DNA of 35,957 nt, taken from positions 1-35,957 of the forward strand of contig JADFYF010000015.1 in NCBI GenBank assembly GCA_015233165.1, written 5' to 3'. Source of the stretch: Candidatus Omnitrophota bacterium (GTDB lineage Bacteria > Omnitrophota > Gorgyraeia > Zapsychrales > Fredricksoniimonadaceae). The notes under the pieces were generated by a model. That model searched no databases. It was not told the DNA's origin and saw nothing but the letters and a program-made list of their open reading frames with translations. The translations under genes and the position numbers were made by a program. Shown here piece after piece: positions 15,953 to 35,452 of this stretch; the first letter of the stretch is position 1; every line of letters starts with the position of its first letter.

Positions 15953-16007
15953 CTCGCAACGTTTTATTTCTAAATATCTAAATAATACTTTTTGGAGGTT
16001 TTTGACA

Positions 16008-18809
16008 ATGGTTGGTTTAAACCAGAGAAAGTCTTTTTCTTTTCGTTTGATCGTGGGCGTTGTGAACCTGTGCTTTATAGCCAGTTTTCTAGTTCCAGCT
16101 CGCGCCTTGGCTCAAAGTCCGGCGGATTTGGGGATGCCCAAGCCAGGGACCATGCTCAATTTGACATCGTCCTTTGTTCCTGTCATTGCTAAGGGGCTGC
16201 ACGTTCATCCTGAAAACCCGATTCTTTTTGATTTTCTGATTGATACTGGTAATTCTGGGTTGGATGTACGGGCTGGGCATGCCCAGCCCCTACGGGCAGA
16301 ATCTGAGAAACTTATTAAATATTTCCTCGCTAGTCTGACTATCCCTGAGAACGATCTGTGGGTGAACCTGTCTCCTTATGAAAAAGACCGCATTATTCCG
16401 GATCAATTAGGTCAAACGGAAATGGGTCGGGATATGTTGGCACAGGATTACGTTTTAAAACAGCTGACAGCTTCTTTAATATATCCCGAGAAGGATTTGG
16501 GGAAGGAATTCTGGAATAGGGTTTACGCGAAGGCGCAGCAAGTCTATGGTTCCAGTCAGGTGCCGGTGAATACCTTTAATAAGGTATGGATTGTGGCGGA
16601 TAAGGCGAAGGTCTATGTTCATGACAACACCGCCTTTGTGGTGGCTTCGCATTTGAAGGTAATGTTGGAGGAAGATTATTTGTCGATGGAGAAACATAAC
16701 AATCCTTTGTTATTCCCGAATGCTTCTGTCGGGAACCTAGAATATGCAATCCCTGGATCCCCGACAAAAACATTCGGGGATGACAAGCAGGCGCATAGTA
16801 TCGGTTCTCAAATCATCCGTGAAATTGTTCTGCCTGAGCTCGACAAAGAAATCAACACCGGCAAGAATTTTGCTAATTTGCGTCAGATTTTTCATTCCAT
16901 GATTCTAGCTGCCTGGTACAAGAAGAACCTGAAAGAAGCTCTGTTGAATCAGGTGTATAGCAACAAAGATAAGATTAACGGCGTTGACGTGTCGGATAAG
17001 ACGATTAAGGAACAGATATATCAGGAGTATCTTAAGGCGTATAAGAAGGGGGTCTTTAACTATATTAAGGAAGATGTCCAAAGTGGCCAGGCGATTCCTA
17101 GAAAGTATTTCTCCGGCGGGCTTGAAGTTCATCCTGATCCTAAGATTGTTCCAATAACAGATCCAGATGCGGCGATGTTTGCGCGGCACTCTGTAGATGG
17201 AGCGATGATTTTTGTAACAACAATAATGAATCGGAGTGATCAAGAGAATGGTGTGCAAAAACAGAAACTCATTTTGGAGAATATTCAACAGGTAACGGGA
17301 GTTTCTGACGGAGCCATGTCATCGGTTTCTCCAGTGTTAAAGGTGACAAGTCTTTTTAAGGGGATAGATCAGCAAACGCGCAAGCGGTTTGATACGACGT
17401 TGTCGGATACAAGTATTGCAACCTTGGCGTTTGCCGTGGAGCAGAATTCTTCTGATGAAGGTCTGGATAAAAAACGAGATGAAGTGGTTGGTGTTTTTGA
17501 TCAATTACGGCAGAAAATGAAAAAGGATTTTCTAATGATATCAGACACCTCCTTGGCAACGCTAGTGCTGGCGATGATGAATCCTGAAAAGATTTCTTTA
17601 GACGATAAAACAAATGAAATGATTCATCTTTTTAAGACGTTTAATAGGGAAGCCTTGCGTAAGTCTTATATCCCTTCAGATACCACCGTAGCAACCTTGG
17701 TGCTGGCTTCGGTGATGGCTTTATCTAAGGAAGGAAATGTTGATCAGATTATTGCTCTTTTTAAGAGATTGGATCAGGAATTTTCAGGGGGTTATAACGA
17801 GACTCTTTCCAGCGAAGCTTTGGCAACGATGGTTTTATCTGTTGTTGCGAATAGATTGTCTTCAGAGATATTCAACAGTCATATAAGTGAGGATATTGAT
17901 CTTTTTGAAGAGATAAAAAAGGATTTCCGTGAGAAGCATAGTAGGGATTTAACGGATTCTTCCGTGGCTTGGATGGTGTTAGCGATTCAGATGGATCGTT
18001 CCCGAGACAGCCTGGATCAGAAGAAGACCAGAGTTGAAGAGTTGTATCGGGATATTCTTGATCAGGAGGTCAGGAGGATTCTATCGCAGGATTCAGTGTC
18101 AATGATGGTCTTAGCTGCTGTCGCCGGTAAGAGTGATGCCGCGATGAATATAACCGAAGATGTGTCGGCATCTTTAAAACATGATTTCCATGGTAAAACC
18201 ATACTTTTTGTTGATCATTCTGATTTGAAGGAGACGTATCAGAGGTATGATCAAGTAAACAATTCTAAATCAAGGTTTGTTTATAATTTCAGAAATCTTG
18301 AGGAAGAATTGAGTCATAAGAATAAACCTGATGCTATTGTTATTGGTAGTGGTTTTTATAGAGAGGATACTGCAACGTTAAGAAACATTGTCAATACGAT
18401 TCAGAGATTAAGTCCGAATACTTTGATTGTGGGATTTTCGCCGACTTCAGTTGGTCGAGAGACTCATGAAGCAATTTTAAGTGGTTTTGAAATAGAGTCA
18501 ACGCGGGGGATTGCGGATTTGTTTATTTGGTTAGACACAAAGATGAAGGATAAAGCTGCTGTAAGTAGCGTTGCAAAATCTCCTGAGCTTATCCAGGGGG
18601 GTATTGATCTTAACGCTAAGAATCTTTTGATGGATGTTGATGGGCAGACAATTTCTCTTAAGTTTGATGCCGCTATGTTAGCTCAGTTTCAAAAAGGCAA
18701 TTTCTCCGGGGTGCATCCGGTGATTATTAAGATCGCTCCGATTCCAAGTATTCTTCCTATGATGGGTTTCGTATCGCGTAAAGAAGATGAGATATTGGCT
18801 AAGCTTTAA
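16008..18809 (+). CDS. Large exported modular protein: conserved N-domain, tandem helical repeats, receiver-like domain, conserved C-terminal 'GGIDL' module
   Basis: SD GGAGG and signal peptide ending PARALAQS. N-domain and C-module align with the 32219-35452 protein. Confidence 0.88.
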   Translation: MVGLNQRKSFSFRLIVGVVNLCFIASFLVPARALAQSPADLGMPKPGTMLNLTSSFVPVIAKGLHVHPENPILFDFLIDTGNSGLDVRAGHAQPLRAESEKLIKYFLASLTIPENDLWVNLSPYEKDRIIPDQLGQTEMGRDMLAQDYVLKQLTASLIYPEKDLGKEFWNRVYAKAQQVYGSSQVPVNTFNKVWIVADKAKVYVHDNTAFVVASHLKVMLEEDYLSMEKHNNPLLFPNASVGNLEYAIPGSPTKTFGDDKQAHSIGSQIIREIVLPELDKEINTGKNFANLRQIFHSMILAAWYKKNLKEALLNQVYSNKDKINGVDVSDKTIKEQIYQEYLKAYKKGVFNYIKEDVQSGQAIPRKYFSGGLEVHPDPKIVPITDPDAAMFARHSVDGAMIFVTTIMNRSDQENGVQKQKLILENIQQVTGVSDGAMSSVSPVLKVTSLFKGIDQQTRKRFDTTLSDTSIATLAFAVEQNSSDEGLDKKRDEVVGVFDQLRQKMKKDFLMISDTSLATLVLAMMNPEKISLDDKTNEMIHLFKTFNREALRKSYIPSDTTVATLVLASVMALSKEGNVDQIIALFKRLDQEFSGGYNETLSSEALATMVLSVVANRLSSEIFNSHISEDIDLFEEIKKDFREKHSRDLTDSSVAWMVLAIQMDRSRDSLDQKKTRVEELYRDILDQEVRRILSQDSVSMMVLAAVAGKSDAAMNITEDVSASLKHDFHGKTILFVDHSDLKETYQRYDQVNNSKSRFVYNFRNLEEELSHKNKPDAIVIGSGFYREDTATLRNIVNTIQRLSPNTLIVGFSPTSVGRETHEAILSGFEIESTRGIADLFIWLDTKMKDKAAVSSVAKSPELIQGGIDLNAKNLLMDVDGQTISLKFDAAMLAQFQKGNFSGVHPVIIKIAPIPSILPMMGFVSRKEDEILAKL
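16266..16295. repeat. In-CDS copy of the GTAGGGGC-family palindrome (GGGCTGGGCATGCCCAGCCC at 16270-16289)
   Basis: Inverted copy of the 454-483 repeat; encodes VRAGHAQPLRA in frame. Confidence 0.85.
16708..16785. repeat. In-CDS TGTCAT...ATGACA inverted repeat (78 bp)
   Basis: TGTTATTCCCGAATGCTTCTGTCGGGAACC ... GGATCCCCGACAAAAACATTCGGGGATGACA; related to 22458-22557 and 27420-27500. Confidence 0.85.
17400..18132 (+). repeat. Six tandem ~45-aa protein repeats within the CDS
   Basis: Cores SDTSIATLAFA, SDTSLATLVLA, SDTTVATLVLA, SSEALATMVLS, TDSSVAWMVLA and SQDSVSMMVLA at regular spacing. Confidence 0.88.
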
Positions 18810-22457: not shown

Positions 22458-22557
22458 TGTCATCCCTGCCTGCCGGCAGGCAGGCCCGAATGTTTTAGTC
22501 GGGGATCCAGGGTTGGCCAAAGTTCTAGGTTCCCGACAAAAGCATTCGGGAACGACA
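22458..22557. repeat. TGTCAT...GACA inverted repeat with a nested 20-bp palindrome (22465-22484)
   Basis: Outer arms CCCGAATGTTTTAGTCGGGGATCCAG / CTAGGTTCCCGACAAAAGCATTCGGGAACGACA; CCTGCCTGCCGGCAGGCAGG interrupts the left arm. Confidence 0.87.
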
Positions 22558-23773: not shown

Positions 23774-23871
23774 TTCCTCCCCCTTTATGGGGGAGGCTAG
23801 GTGGGGGTATAAATAGAGAGATATCTCTTTTTGTGCCCCCTCCCCTAGCCCCTCCCACAAGGGGAGGGGAA
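23774..23871. repeat. CT-rich inverted repeat (TTCCTCCCCC ... GGGGAGGGGAA)
   Basis: Arms CCTCCCCCTTTATGGGGGAGGCTAGG / CCCCTAGCCCCTCCCACAAGGGGAGG; same family as 32899-33026. Confidence 0.83.
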
Positions 23872-32218: not shown

Positions 32219-35200
32219 ATGAAGAAGCTTATATCTATCGTCTTGCTGGTGTCCTTTCTGACAACCACTCAGGGTTCCCATATTGTTCAGGCGCAGGAGT
32301 TGACCTTGCCTGTTGCTGGCGTCAGGGGGCATTTAAGTCCTGAATTTAATCCTCCGATTCTAAGAGGGATTAAGGTCTATCCGGATAATCCGTTTCGGTT
32401 TGAATTCGTCTTGGACCAAGGGGACAGGACGTCCTTGGAAGCCAAAAGCGAAAGCATTTTGGCGAAGGAGGATTACCTCAAAACCGAATCCACCAAACTC
32501 ATCAAATATTTCCTCGCCAGCCTCACCGTCCCCGAAAAAGACCTTTGGGTCAATCTAAGCCCCTACGAAAAAGACAGAATTGTCCCAGAATCCTTTGGTC
32601 AAACTGAAATGGGCAGAGACTTGTTGGCGCAGGATTATATCTTGAAACAGATAACAGCGAGTTTGATTTACCCCGAGGATGAGGTTGGAAAGAAGTTTTG
32701 GAAGAGGATTTATGAAGAAGCTGCTCGCAGATACGGAACAACTTCTGTTTCTGTGAATACGTTTAATAAGGTTTGGATTGTTCCTGAGAAGGCGGTGGTG
32801 TATGAGAATACCAGGGCTGGAACGGCTTATGTGGTCGAGGCTCGTTTGAAGGTGATGTTGGAGGAAGATTACCTATCGCTGGAGAAATATAATTCTGATT
32901 CCCCTCCCCTTGACCCGCCTCTGGCGGGTCTTGTGGGAGGGGCTAGGGGAGGGGGCGATTCGCAAAATCCCCCCTCCCTAACCCTGCCTGCCGGCAGGCA
33001 GGCCTCCAACACAAAGGGGGAGGGAATTAATAATTTAGGCTCCAATATCATCCGAGAAATCATCATCCCCGAACTCACTAAGGAAATCAACGAAGGCAAA
33101 AACTTTGCTCAACTGAGACAGGTTTACAATTCTTTAATCTTAGCGACGTGGTACAAGAAGAAGATTAAGGAAAGTATCTTGTCGCAGGTGTATGAGGATA
33201 AGAATAAGGTGGCGGGGGTTGGTTTTGAAGACGTAGGGGCGGGTTCCAAACCCGCCCAAGAACAACGGGCAGGCCTGCCTGCCGGACAGGCAGGTTTAGA
33301 ACCTGCCCCTACGGTATTGGACGTTACAACCATCTACAAACAATATCTCACTGCCTTCAAAAAAGGCGTCTACAACTATATCAAGGAAGAATCTGATCCT
33401 GTCACTCAACAACCTACCCCCAGAAAGTATTTCTCCGGCGGATGGACAGCTCTCCCATTAGATCATGCCATGACCATTGTGACCCGTATGTCCGGCTCTT
33501 TACCACATTCAGCGATGAAGGTTGATGTCCGATTAGATCAGGCGATGAATAGCTATACCCGCTTAGATCCTGCGTTAGAAACAATTATTAGGAGTCATCG
33601 ATTGGCTTTGGATTTGACCGGAGCAGCTTCGGACGGATCCTTAAAAGATATTCCGACTATTGAATATGGACGTTATCTTCAGGAATATATCTGGCATGAC
33701 TCTCAAGAGAGTCTTAAGCGTTTTGATTTTTATCGAGACGCTACTTCGACGCCTGACAATGGCCATATCGGTTCTCAGGTGGGGCCTTTTATTTTTATGG
33801 AAGAAGAATTCTTTGATACCCTTAGTGCTCAGGAGAAGGAGCAGATTCAAGACCGGGTTGTAAGATACCATCGCAAGGATTCGTTGTGGAGGTATGCGCC
33901 TTATGCGACGGGAATGATTTTTGCGCTTATGCATTATCCGGTTAGTGAGTATGGTTTTATTGATAGTGGGGCAGGAAAAGGAATTCTTGCTTTATCCACT
34001 CTTAAAATGGGAGCCCCCTTTGTGTATTTGGCAGATCATGATCCAGAAGCCTTAGCAGCGGCGAGAAGGACATTAATTTTAAATAATTATGAAGAGGGAA
34101 AAGATTTCTTTATAGAAGACATTGATCTAAGGAATTTTGACTTGATTAAAGAGTTAACGAAAAAAGTAAAAGCTGAGGCTATTAAAAGAGGAAAGAAGTT
34201 AGCCTTGATATCTAATATTGGAGAGTGGGAAGAATTTAGTGTTTCTAATACGAATAGTTTGAATTTTGTTAAAGCATCCGAAGGTTTAATAAGCCTTGCG
34301 TTTTTAACCGGATATAATCTTAGAAATTCAGTGACCAATTCTCGAGTTGTAGCGAATGATGAAAAAGTTTTTAAGGAATTTAAGATGCAAAGTCAACGGA
34401 TCGTTACAGCTTCAAATCATATGGATGTCGTTCTCCTCGGTGAGCTTAATCCATCAGAAGATCGGTGGAATAAAAATAATATTGCAATGATTTTTACACC
34501 CAAAATGATCAAGCACCTTCCTGTAAAGATAGAACTTGCTAATATTACGAAAAAAGATGGTCCTCCTGTTATTTTGCAGATTAGTAAATATAGTGACGAT
34601 ATTTATGATATTAAGGTGTTCGTTAATGACGAATATACAGGTAGCTTTCAAATAGAAACATTAACCGATCTTTTATATGTGATTAATTTCTTTCATCCCA
34701 TTGGAGATTTTGATTCCCTTGTGAATTTTGACAGGGAAGTCAACTTGGAATGGAGCGGGAAGGGGGTTGCATCGACAATACTTAATTGGCTTGCTTGGAC
34801 AGCCAAACAAAATAACGTTCAATTAGGTAACTCTGGAACAGAAACCTTTAGCCTGCTTCGTCTGTATCAATTATTTTTTGCAGGGGAGATCTTTAATAAA
34901 GATTTCTATAATAATCATGAATTGTTTCTTGGATTGGGCCCGTTAACTTCAGCGTCGGTTATTATAAAGGTCAAATCTATTGAGGGAAGTTCGGATATCT
35001 ATAAAATTACAAATCAAGATTGGATTGTTGAAGACAAATTTGAATTAGGGTCTTTAATAAGGATTGATGAGAATGGGTGCGTTTGGTCAGAGAATAAGGA
35101 TCATAAAATTGGAAATATTATTCAAGTAAGTTTAACTCAGCGCAAAGGGACTCCTCAATACAAGGAACTACCAAGAATCAAAATTCTCGATAATGCCCAA

Positions 35201-35452
35201 TTGGTTCAATCAGTTAAGAAGGGTCAGGAGATGGGGTCTCAAGGTCCTGGCGGTATTGATTTGACTTCTGATCAAGCCTTGCAAGTTAAAAACGATGGCA
35301 ATGGAGAGCTTGAGTTCCACCTCGATTCCGCGCAGCTCGCCCAACTGCAAAACGCTCCGGGATTTGTGCCGGTGATTATTAATATAGAACCGCTGATCGA
35401 TTTGGAAGATTTCTTGGGGATAAGCTCTCAAGAAAAGCTTGCAAACGTATAA
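32219..35452 (+). CDS. Large exported modular protein: conserved N-domain, methyltransferase-like payload, conserved C-terminal 'GGIDL' module
   Basis: Signal peptide (MKKLISIVLLVSFLTTTQG..VQAQE). TESTKLIKYFLASLTVPEKDLWVNLSPYEKDRIVPESFGQTEMGRD matches the 16008-18809 protein. SAM-binding-like FIDSGAGKGILALSTLKMGAPFVYLADHDPEAL. Confidence 0.88.
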   Translation: MKKLISIVLLVSFLTTTQGSHIVQAQELTLPVAGVRGHLSPEFNPPILRGIKVYPDNPFRFEFVLDQGDRTSLEAKSESILAKEDYLKTESTKLIKYFLASLTVPEKDLWVNLSPYEKDRIVPESFGQTEMGRDLLAQDYILKQITASLIYPEDEVGKKFWKRIYEEAARRYGTTSVSVNTFNKVWIVPEKAVVYENTRAGTAYVVEARLKVMLEEDYLSLEKYNSDSPPLDPPLAGLVGGARGGGDSQNPPSLTLPAGRQASNTKGEGINNLGSNIIREIIIPELTKEINEGKNFAQLRQVYNSLILATWYKKKIKESILSQVYEDKNKVAGVGFEDVGAGSKPAQEQRAGLPAGQAGLEPAPTVLDVTTIYKQYLTAFKKGVYNYIKEESDPVTQQPTPRKYFSGGWTALPLDHAMTIVTRMSGSLPHSAMKVDVRLDQAMNSYTRLDPALETIIRSHRLALDLTGAASDGSLKDIPTIEYGRYLQEYIWHDSQESLKRFDFYRDATSTPDNGHIGSQVGPFIFMEEEFFDTLSAQEKEQIQDRVVRYHRKDSLWRYAPYATGMIFALMHYPVSEYGFIDSGAGKGILALSTLKMGAPFVYLADHDPEALAAARRTLILNNYEEGKDFFIEDIDLRNFDLIKELTKKVKAEAIKRGKKLALISNIGEWEEFSVSNTNSLNFVKASEGLISLAFLTGYNLRNSVTNSRVVANDEKVFKEFKMQSQRIVTASNHMDVVLLGELNPSEDRWNKNNIAMIFTPKMIKHLPVKIELANITKKDGPPVILQISKYSDDIYDIKVFVNDEYTGSFQIETLTDLLYVINFFHPIGDFDSLVNFDREVNLEWSGKGVASTILNWLAWTAKQNNVQLGNSGTETFSLLRLYQLFFAGEIFNKDFYNNHELFLGLGPLTSASVIIKVKSIEGSSDIYKITNQDWIVEDKFELGSLIRIDENGCVWSENKDHKIGNIIQVSLTQRKGTPQYKELPRIKILDNAQLVQSVKKGQEMGSQGPGGIDLTSDQALQVKNDGNGELEFHLDSAQLAQLQNAPGFVPVIINIEPLIDLEDFLGISSQEKLANV
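32899..33026. repeat. CT-rich inverted repeat inside the CDS, with two nested palindromes (32912-32930 and 32983-33002)
   Basis: TTCCCCTCCCCTT...GGGAGGGGCTAGGGGAGGGGG ... CCCCCCTCCCTAACC...AAAGGGGGAGGGAA. Nested GACCCGCCTCTGGCGGGTC and CCTGCCTGCCGGCAGGCAGG. Confidence 0.87.
33233..33312. repeat. GTAGGGGC...GCCCCTAC inverted repeat inside the CDS, with nested CCTGCCTGCCGGACAGGCAGG (33274-33294)
   Basis: Termini match the 454-483 / 16266-16295 family. Confidence 0.83.

Follow-up and report, generated by a model that had tools for sequence, protein, structure and literature searches.

A PrmA-like methyltransferase module in a putative exported effector family with exchanged middles, and in giant open reading frames, of Omnitrophota

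Polymorphic toxin and effector systems place variable payloads behind shared trafficking N-termini, and the secreted SET-domain methyltransferase effectors NUE of Chlamydia and RomA of Legionella have different secretion routes of their own. Giant open reading frames (ORFs) of the phylum Omnitrophota are reportedly also the subject of a preprint on giant genes from West-Roberts and coworkers. According to PMC10066038 these ORFs have poor annotation and are difficult to assess, and most Omnitrophota are proposed to be predators or parasites. The gene considered here lies at 32219..35452 on the + strand of a 35,957-nucleotide stretch, the window (contig JADFYF010000015.1), of an Omnitrophota metagenome-assembled genome (GCA_015233165.1; 2.29 Mb, 78% estimated completeness). 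Its 1077-aa product has in succession a predicted signal peptide, a conserved N-terminal (N) region, a methyltransferase payload, a second payload module and a conserved C-terminal segment. The original prediction, made from the letters of the window, had placed an S-adenosylmethionine (SAM)-methyltransferase-like domain at 33930-34215 and offered three options for an enzyme so situated: delivery into another cell, no actual export, or a repurposed domain.

With the polymorphic systems the family to which this gene belongs shares conserved ends, many unrelated enzymatic middles and many copies per genome, but neither its N region nor its other shared parts match any family in Pfam or NCBIfam, and its payloads are regulatory-type enzymes. 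With NUE and RomA it would have in common a bacterial SAM-dependent enzyme meant for another cell, but the module here is Rossmann-type and stands behind a Sec signal.

That the domain (aa 508-755, approximately 33740..34483, + strand) has the class I SAM-methyltransferase fold is close to certain, with Pfam, profile, structure model, Foldseek and alignment all pointing the same way. The peptide originally quoted is exact and in the + strand frame of the ORF; the interval given for it takes in motif I and strands 2 and 3, but is only part of the domain and ends where N-I-G-E-W starts. PrmA, the ribosomal protein L11 methyltransferase (PF06325), is the top Pfam match at 27 bits (E=3.8e-6; gathering cut-off 22 bits), spanning only profile positions 162-213 of 296, with a weaker match to MTS. 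A nine-sequence profile of relatives (A1), run against PDB, matched PrmA 3grz at E=9.6e-9, near the top, and also arginine methyltransferases (PRMT) at E about 1e-8. The likeness to PrmA, in class I fold and motifs I and II, has its bounds: only ~50-60 residues align by sequence, the module sits in an exported protein and has its own motifs, NIGxW and GGY, downstream of motif I, the Pfam profile finds nothing of the PrmA N-terminal substrate-recognition domain upstream of the matched part in the 1077-aa protein, and the domain scores 22.5 bits against an NCBIfam PrmA equivalog cut-off of 183.15. An AlphaFold model of a 302-aa piece, made with a three-sequence alignment, has a mean pLDDT of 63.9, mostly 83-96 in the core at about residues 100-200 of the piece and of low confidence in the last strands. 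It nevertheless has the Rossmann-like element order canonical for seven-strand class I methyltransferases (b1-aA-b2-aB-b3-aC-b4-aD-b5-aE-b6-b7), as had been anticipated. Foldseek on the model gave 494 matches at E<=0.001, the best 50 of the 494 being mostly methyltransferases; METTL5, KsgA, PrmA and RlmCD are among the matches listed, with PrmA 3grz at TM 0.71-0.72 when normalised by target.

The SAM site was judged over 29 aligned Omnitrophota sequences. Motif I (F-I-D-S-G-A-G-K-G, aa 580-590, 33956..33988, + strand, with GAGKG at aa 584-588) keeps its three glycines in 28/29, 27/29 and 27/29, and the acidic residue closing strand 2 (D606, 34034..34036) is D or E in 28/29, so that motifs I and II are as first read. 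The family motif N-I-G-E-W (aa 666-670, 34214..34228) keeps N and G in all 29. Because the profile used to gather the relatives gives weight to motif I, conservation there is somewhat biased, that of NIGxW and GGY less so. The SAM-site residues look intact and the enzyme is putatively active. N-I likewise stands at motif IV of PrmA, and on that ground the module may plausibly act on a protein or some other nitrogen substrate.

The ATG at 32219 is the first in-frame start of the ORF, with a stop codon just upstream. Judged by composition, the start that follows has every part of a Sec signal peptide (aa 1-25, 32219..32293, + strand): MKKLISIVLLVSFLTTTQGSHIVQA followed by QE, with charge +2, a 10-residue core of mean hydropathy 3.0 and a V-Q-A cut site, the cut being predicted between VQA and QE. 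No transmembrane segment was found after it in the 1077-aa protein, which is very probably exported.

Behind the signal peptide the conserved N region (aa 26-409, 32294..33445, + strand), whose last residues are KYFSGG, is common to ~45 ORFs of the source genome, and the conserved C-terminal segment (aa 1008-1077, 35240..35449, + strand; GGIDLTSD...GFVPVIINIEP) is present in 34, contig-truncated ORFs being counted in both. The two run to ~400 and ~65 aa across paralogs, whose N regions are ~50-90% identical to each other. Between these ends 31/46 payloads have no detectable similarity to any other payload and 15/46 have some. In DNA the closest paralog (L058) keeps 89% identity as far as gene base 1227, at the KYFSGG border (aa 409), and is unrelated beyond; identity that ends at the border of N region and payload is the trace expected from recent payload exchange behind a common front. 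Taken together, these comparisons argue strongly for a polymorphic architecture in which the ends are fixed and the middles exchanged. A signal peptide was recognised, by a strict rule, at 28/35 paralog starts versus 10/103 non-family ORFs of the source genome, the rule being home-made, crude and no substitute for a trained predictor. The second payload module (aa 773-1000, 34535..35218, + strand) is common within the source genome only to a kinase-bearing paralog (L052), and has relatives in genome G003; a GNAT-like reading of it by eye was backed by no search.

What do the sibling payloads look like? By Pfam matches above or near cut-off they include tandem Ser/Thr kinases (L069; a weaker kinase match in L052), SNF2 helicases (L075, L090), an AAA_5 ATPase (L053), further methyltransferases (CheR in L056, Methyltransf_11 in L071), NUDIX (L071, L087) and calcineurin-like phosphoesterase (L066, L074) enzymes, together with matches to FHA (L066, L073), DnaJ (L081), HlyD (L080) and HEAT repeats (L082, L086). 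Catalytic motifs are readable in them: HND...DFG in the kinases, GTGKT and DEAH in SNF2, GSGKS in AAA, with key catalytic residues also readable in the NUDIX and phosphoesterase payloads.

Across a phylum sample of 384 Omnitrophota genomes the N region is present in 134, among them nearly every genome of the source order, with up to 41 matches per genome, and the methyltransferase profile matches 56 at E<=1e-9, with relatives in many genera. The ORFs that hold long module matches range from 440 to 57,099 aa, with 33,383, 26,531, 22,742, 20,993 and 18,962 aa among their lengths; profile matches of ~300 aa centre on motif I and resemble ordinary PrmA-type enzymes. The 57,099-aa open frame with the module is at L155 (G178 C6, around 166816). 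The 1077-aa protein thus shares phylum and methyltransferase module with giant ORFs of the kind presented in PMC10066038, but it is small, soluble after its signal peptide and one of a multicopy family with fixed ends, most giant starts being out of view. A loose rule, passed also by 28/103 background ORFs, recognises a signal-like peptide in all 14 module carriers with a visible start; the count covers intact carriers, three giant ORFs having been traced to contig or stretch ends with their N-termini out of view. The fronts of the carriers are either the N region of 32219-35452, an unrelated 'QDAH' type that occurs in other Omnitrophota (L143, L144, L150, L159) or others (L140, L151). Since at least two unrelated N-terminal scaffolds carry the module, its link to export was seemingly made more than once, although carriers with a common front are not independent of each other. 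The 'QDAH...EAQ.NI' scaffold also stands at the signal-like start of a 12,257-aa ORF (L159).

A compact stand-alone version of the module, which it had been suggested to look for, was not found at full length among the phylum genomes, and no relatives were found in viral contigs, phages or plasmids. There was no PADLOC or PHROGs match either, and these searches give no support to a role in anti-phage defence or as a phage protein. One genome-contig scan gave only two Omnitrophota loci, other phyla not being properly sampled by it. The 440-aa module ORF of genome G007 is not an independent stand-alone gene, because it directly follows an N-region ORF from which a frame change at an A-run separates it. 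At that locus (L099, around 2699-2712) a stretch of seven A lies where the N-region ORF and the methyltransferase ORF, each in its own frame, overlap, and the frame split there may be genuine or may equally be an assembly artefact.

SAM and ATP are cytosolic cofactors, and from this we infer that such payloads would act inside a prey or host cell, in its cytosol. Of the three options originally offered, delivery into another cell has the best fit, since sibling payloads too are of ATP- or SAM-using enzyme types, and we lean, with due reserve, towards a family of exported effectors, polymorphic in their cofactor-dependent payloads, which would work in the cytosol of another cell. The signal peptide would take the protein over the inner membrane, with the N region and the short C-terminal segment serving as presumptive common trafficking parts. 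The middle, exchangeable as the paralog comparison indicates, would here bring a PrmA-like methyltransferase followed by the second module into the prey or host cytosol, where the methyltransferase would modify a macromolecule, most likely a protein, using the SAM of that cell. Other exported scaffolds, and giant proteins of the phylum, appear to have acquired the same module. The literature on a predatory or parasitic lifestyle supports action in another cell, and for the predator V. archaeovorus intron RNA is reported inside archaeal cells (PMC13153191). Weighing against delivery are several observations. The structure model of the N region, at mean pLDDT 47.8, is too weak to read, and in roughly half of the payloads no domain is recognisable. 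No delivery machine tied to the family was found in the source genome or relatives; five matches to secretins were counted in the source genome, along with many type II secretion/type IV pilus ATPases, and the type VI sheath protein VipB was not found in it. A conjugative type IV secretion system (T4SS) cluster with a tyrosine integrase occurs in three copies (L179 and L180, on G000 C113 and C143, and L181), and on C113 and C143 a family paralog sits upstream of a conserved HTH gene and the T4SS. In relatives the HTH gene and T4SS recur at eight homologous clusters, with other genes in that place and no paralog upstream of VirB4, so the paralog looks like variable element cargo. The family as T4SS cargo was set aside, the adjacency being confined to the two own-genome clusters. 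No immunity gene for the family was identified.

Could the exported protein stay in the producer's periplasm, surface or coat, its fold used only for binding or structure? A signal peptide and large size would suit a surface protein, giant Omnitrophota proteins are proposed as coat or adhesins in PMC10066038, and some distant module members, L146 for example, have lost residues. This is possible but unlikely, for the SAM-site glycines, the acidic residue and N-x-G are kept phylum-wide, with the caveat that the profile prefers sequences having motif I, and sibling payloads keep the catalytic residues of ATP-using enzymes. With SAM-site residues near-invariant, a repurposed or dead domain is disfavoured. 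Yet more doubtful is a reading in which the hydrophobic start does not serve as a signal and the producer's cytosol is where the enzyme works. The recognised payload types are mostly cytosolic as a rule and no clear Shine-Dalgarno was seen upstream of ATG 32219, but diverged paralogs and unrelated scaffolds alike retain a positive N-terminus, a hydrophobic core and an A-x-A-type cut, and it is this retention of the signal peptide, by the strict rule in paralogs and the loose one in carriers, that disfavours absence of export. A genuine N-terminus downstream of the signal peptide, the outcome that might have undone the original prediction, is disfavoured: apart from the ATG at 32219 no start comes ahead of the N region, which begins right after the signal peptide and would be destroyed by a later start. 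By the positive-inside rule even an uncut anchor of such charge would still place the enzyme outside. Most improbable is a chance fusion, since decayed, between an unrelated exported protein and the PrmA gene of the cell itself: PrmA is the best Pfam match, but the genome has a separate PrmA-type ORF (C132, 297 aa), the module has the motifs NIGxW and GGY of its own and falls short of the PrmA cut-off in NCBIfam, and its relatives in many Omnitrophota genera already contradict such a fusion.

The exported family is not described in such Omnitrophota literature on giants or effectors as was covered, in part, and its novelty is provisional because preprints and most subscription papers lie outside that coverage. 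A concrete enzyme domain is now assigned to the poorly understood giant ORFs, and a conserved, expressible 250-aa domain found in both small exported proteins and giants is a direct biochemical handle on them. In this ultra-small, probably predatory phylum the family further indicates a large body of putative effector enzymes acting between cells that is as yet unexplored. As a tentative extension, one may entertain an arsenal specific to the phylum: dozens of interchangeable intracellular enzymes (methyltransferases, kinases, helicases, ATPases) would be brought into prey or host by a common exported scaffold, with the giant ORFs as extended versions bearing the same methyltransferase module.

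The gene is, as first stated, the second exported paralog of the window. The first, at 16002..18809 on the + strand, has the same N region (54% identical) and C-terminal segment, and an unrelated payload. That payload, which has no Pfam match, contains several short S-D-x-S-V-A-x-x-V-L-A-type repeats, and by eye there is a receiver-like stretch (KTILFVDHS...PNTLIVGFSPTS) ahead of the C-terminal segment. Within the N region of 32219-35452, repeat comparison found two dispersed repeats in frame on the + strand, at 32894..33034 (aa 226-272) and 33227..33328 (aa 337-370). Many paralog loci hold copies of such repeats, the copy in the N region of L058 being identical over 141/141 bases. They are GC-rich with palindromic cores, and occur elsewhere in the window at 22464-22486 and 23835-23861.
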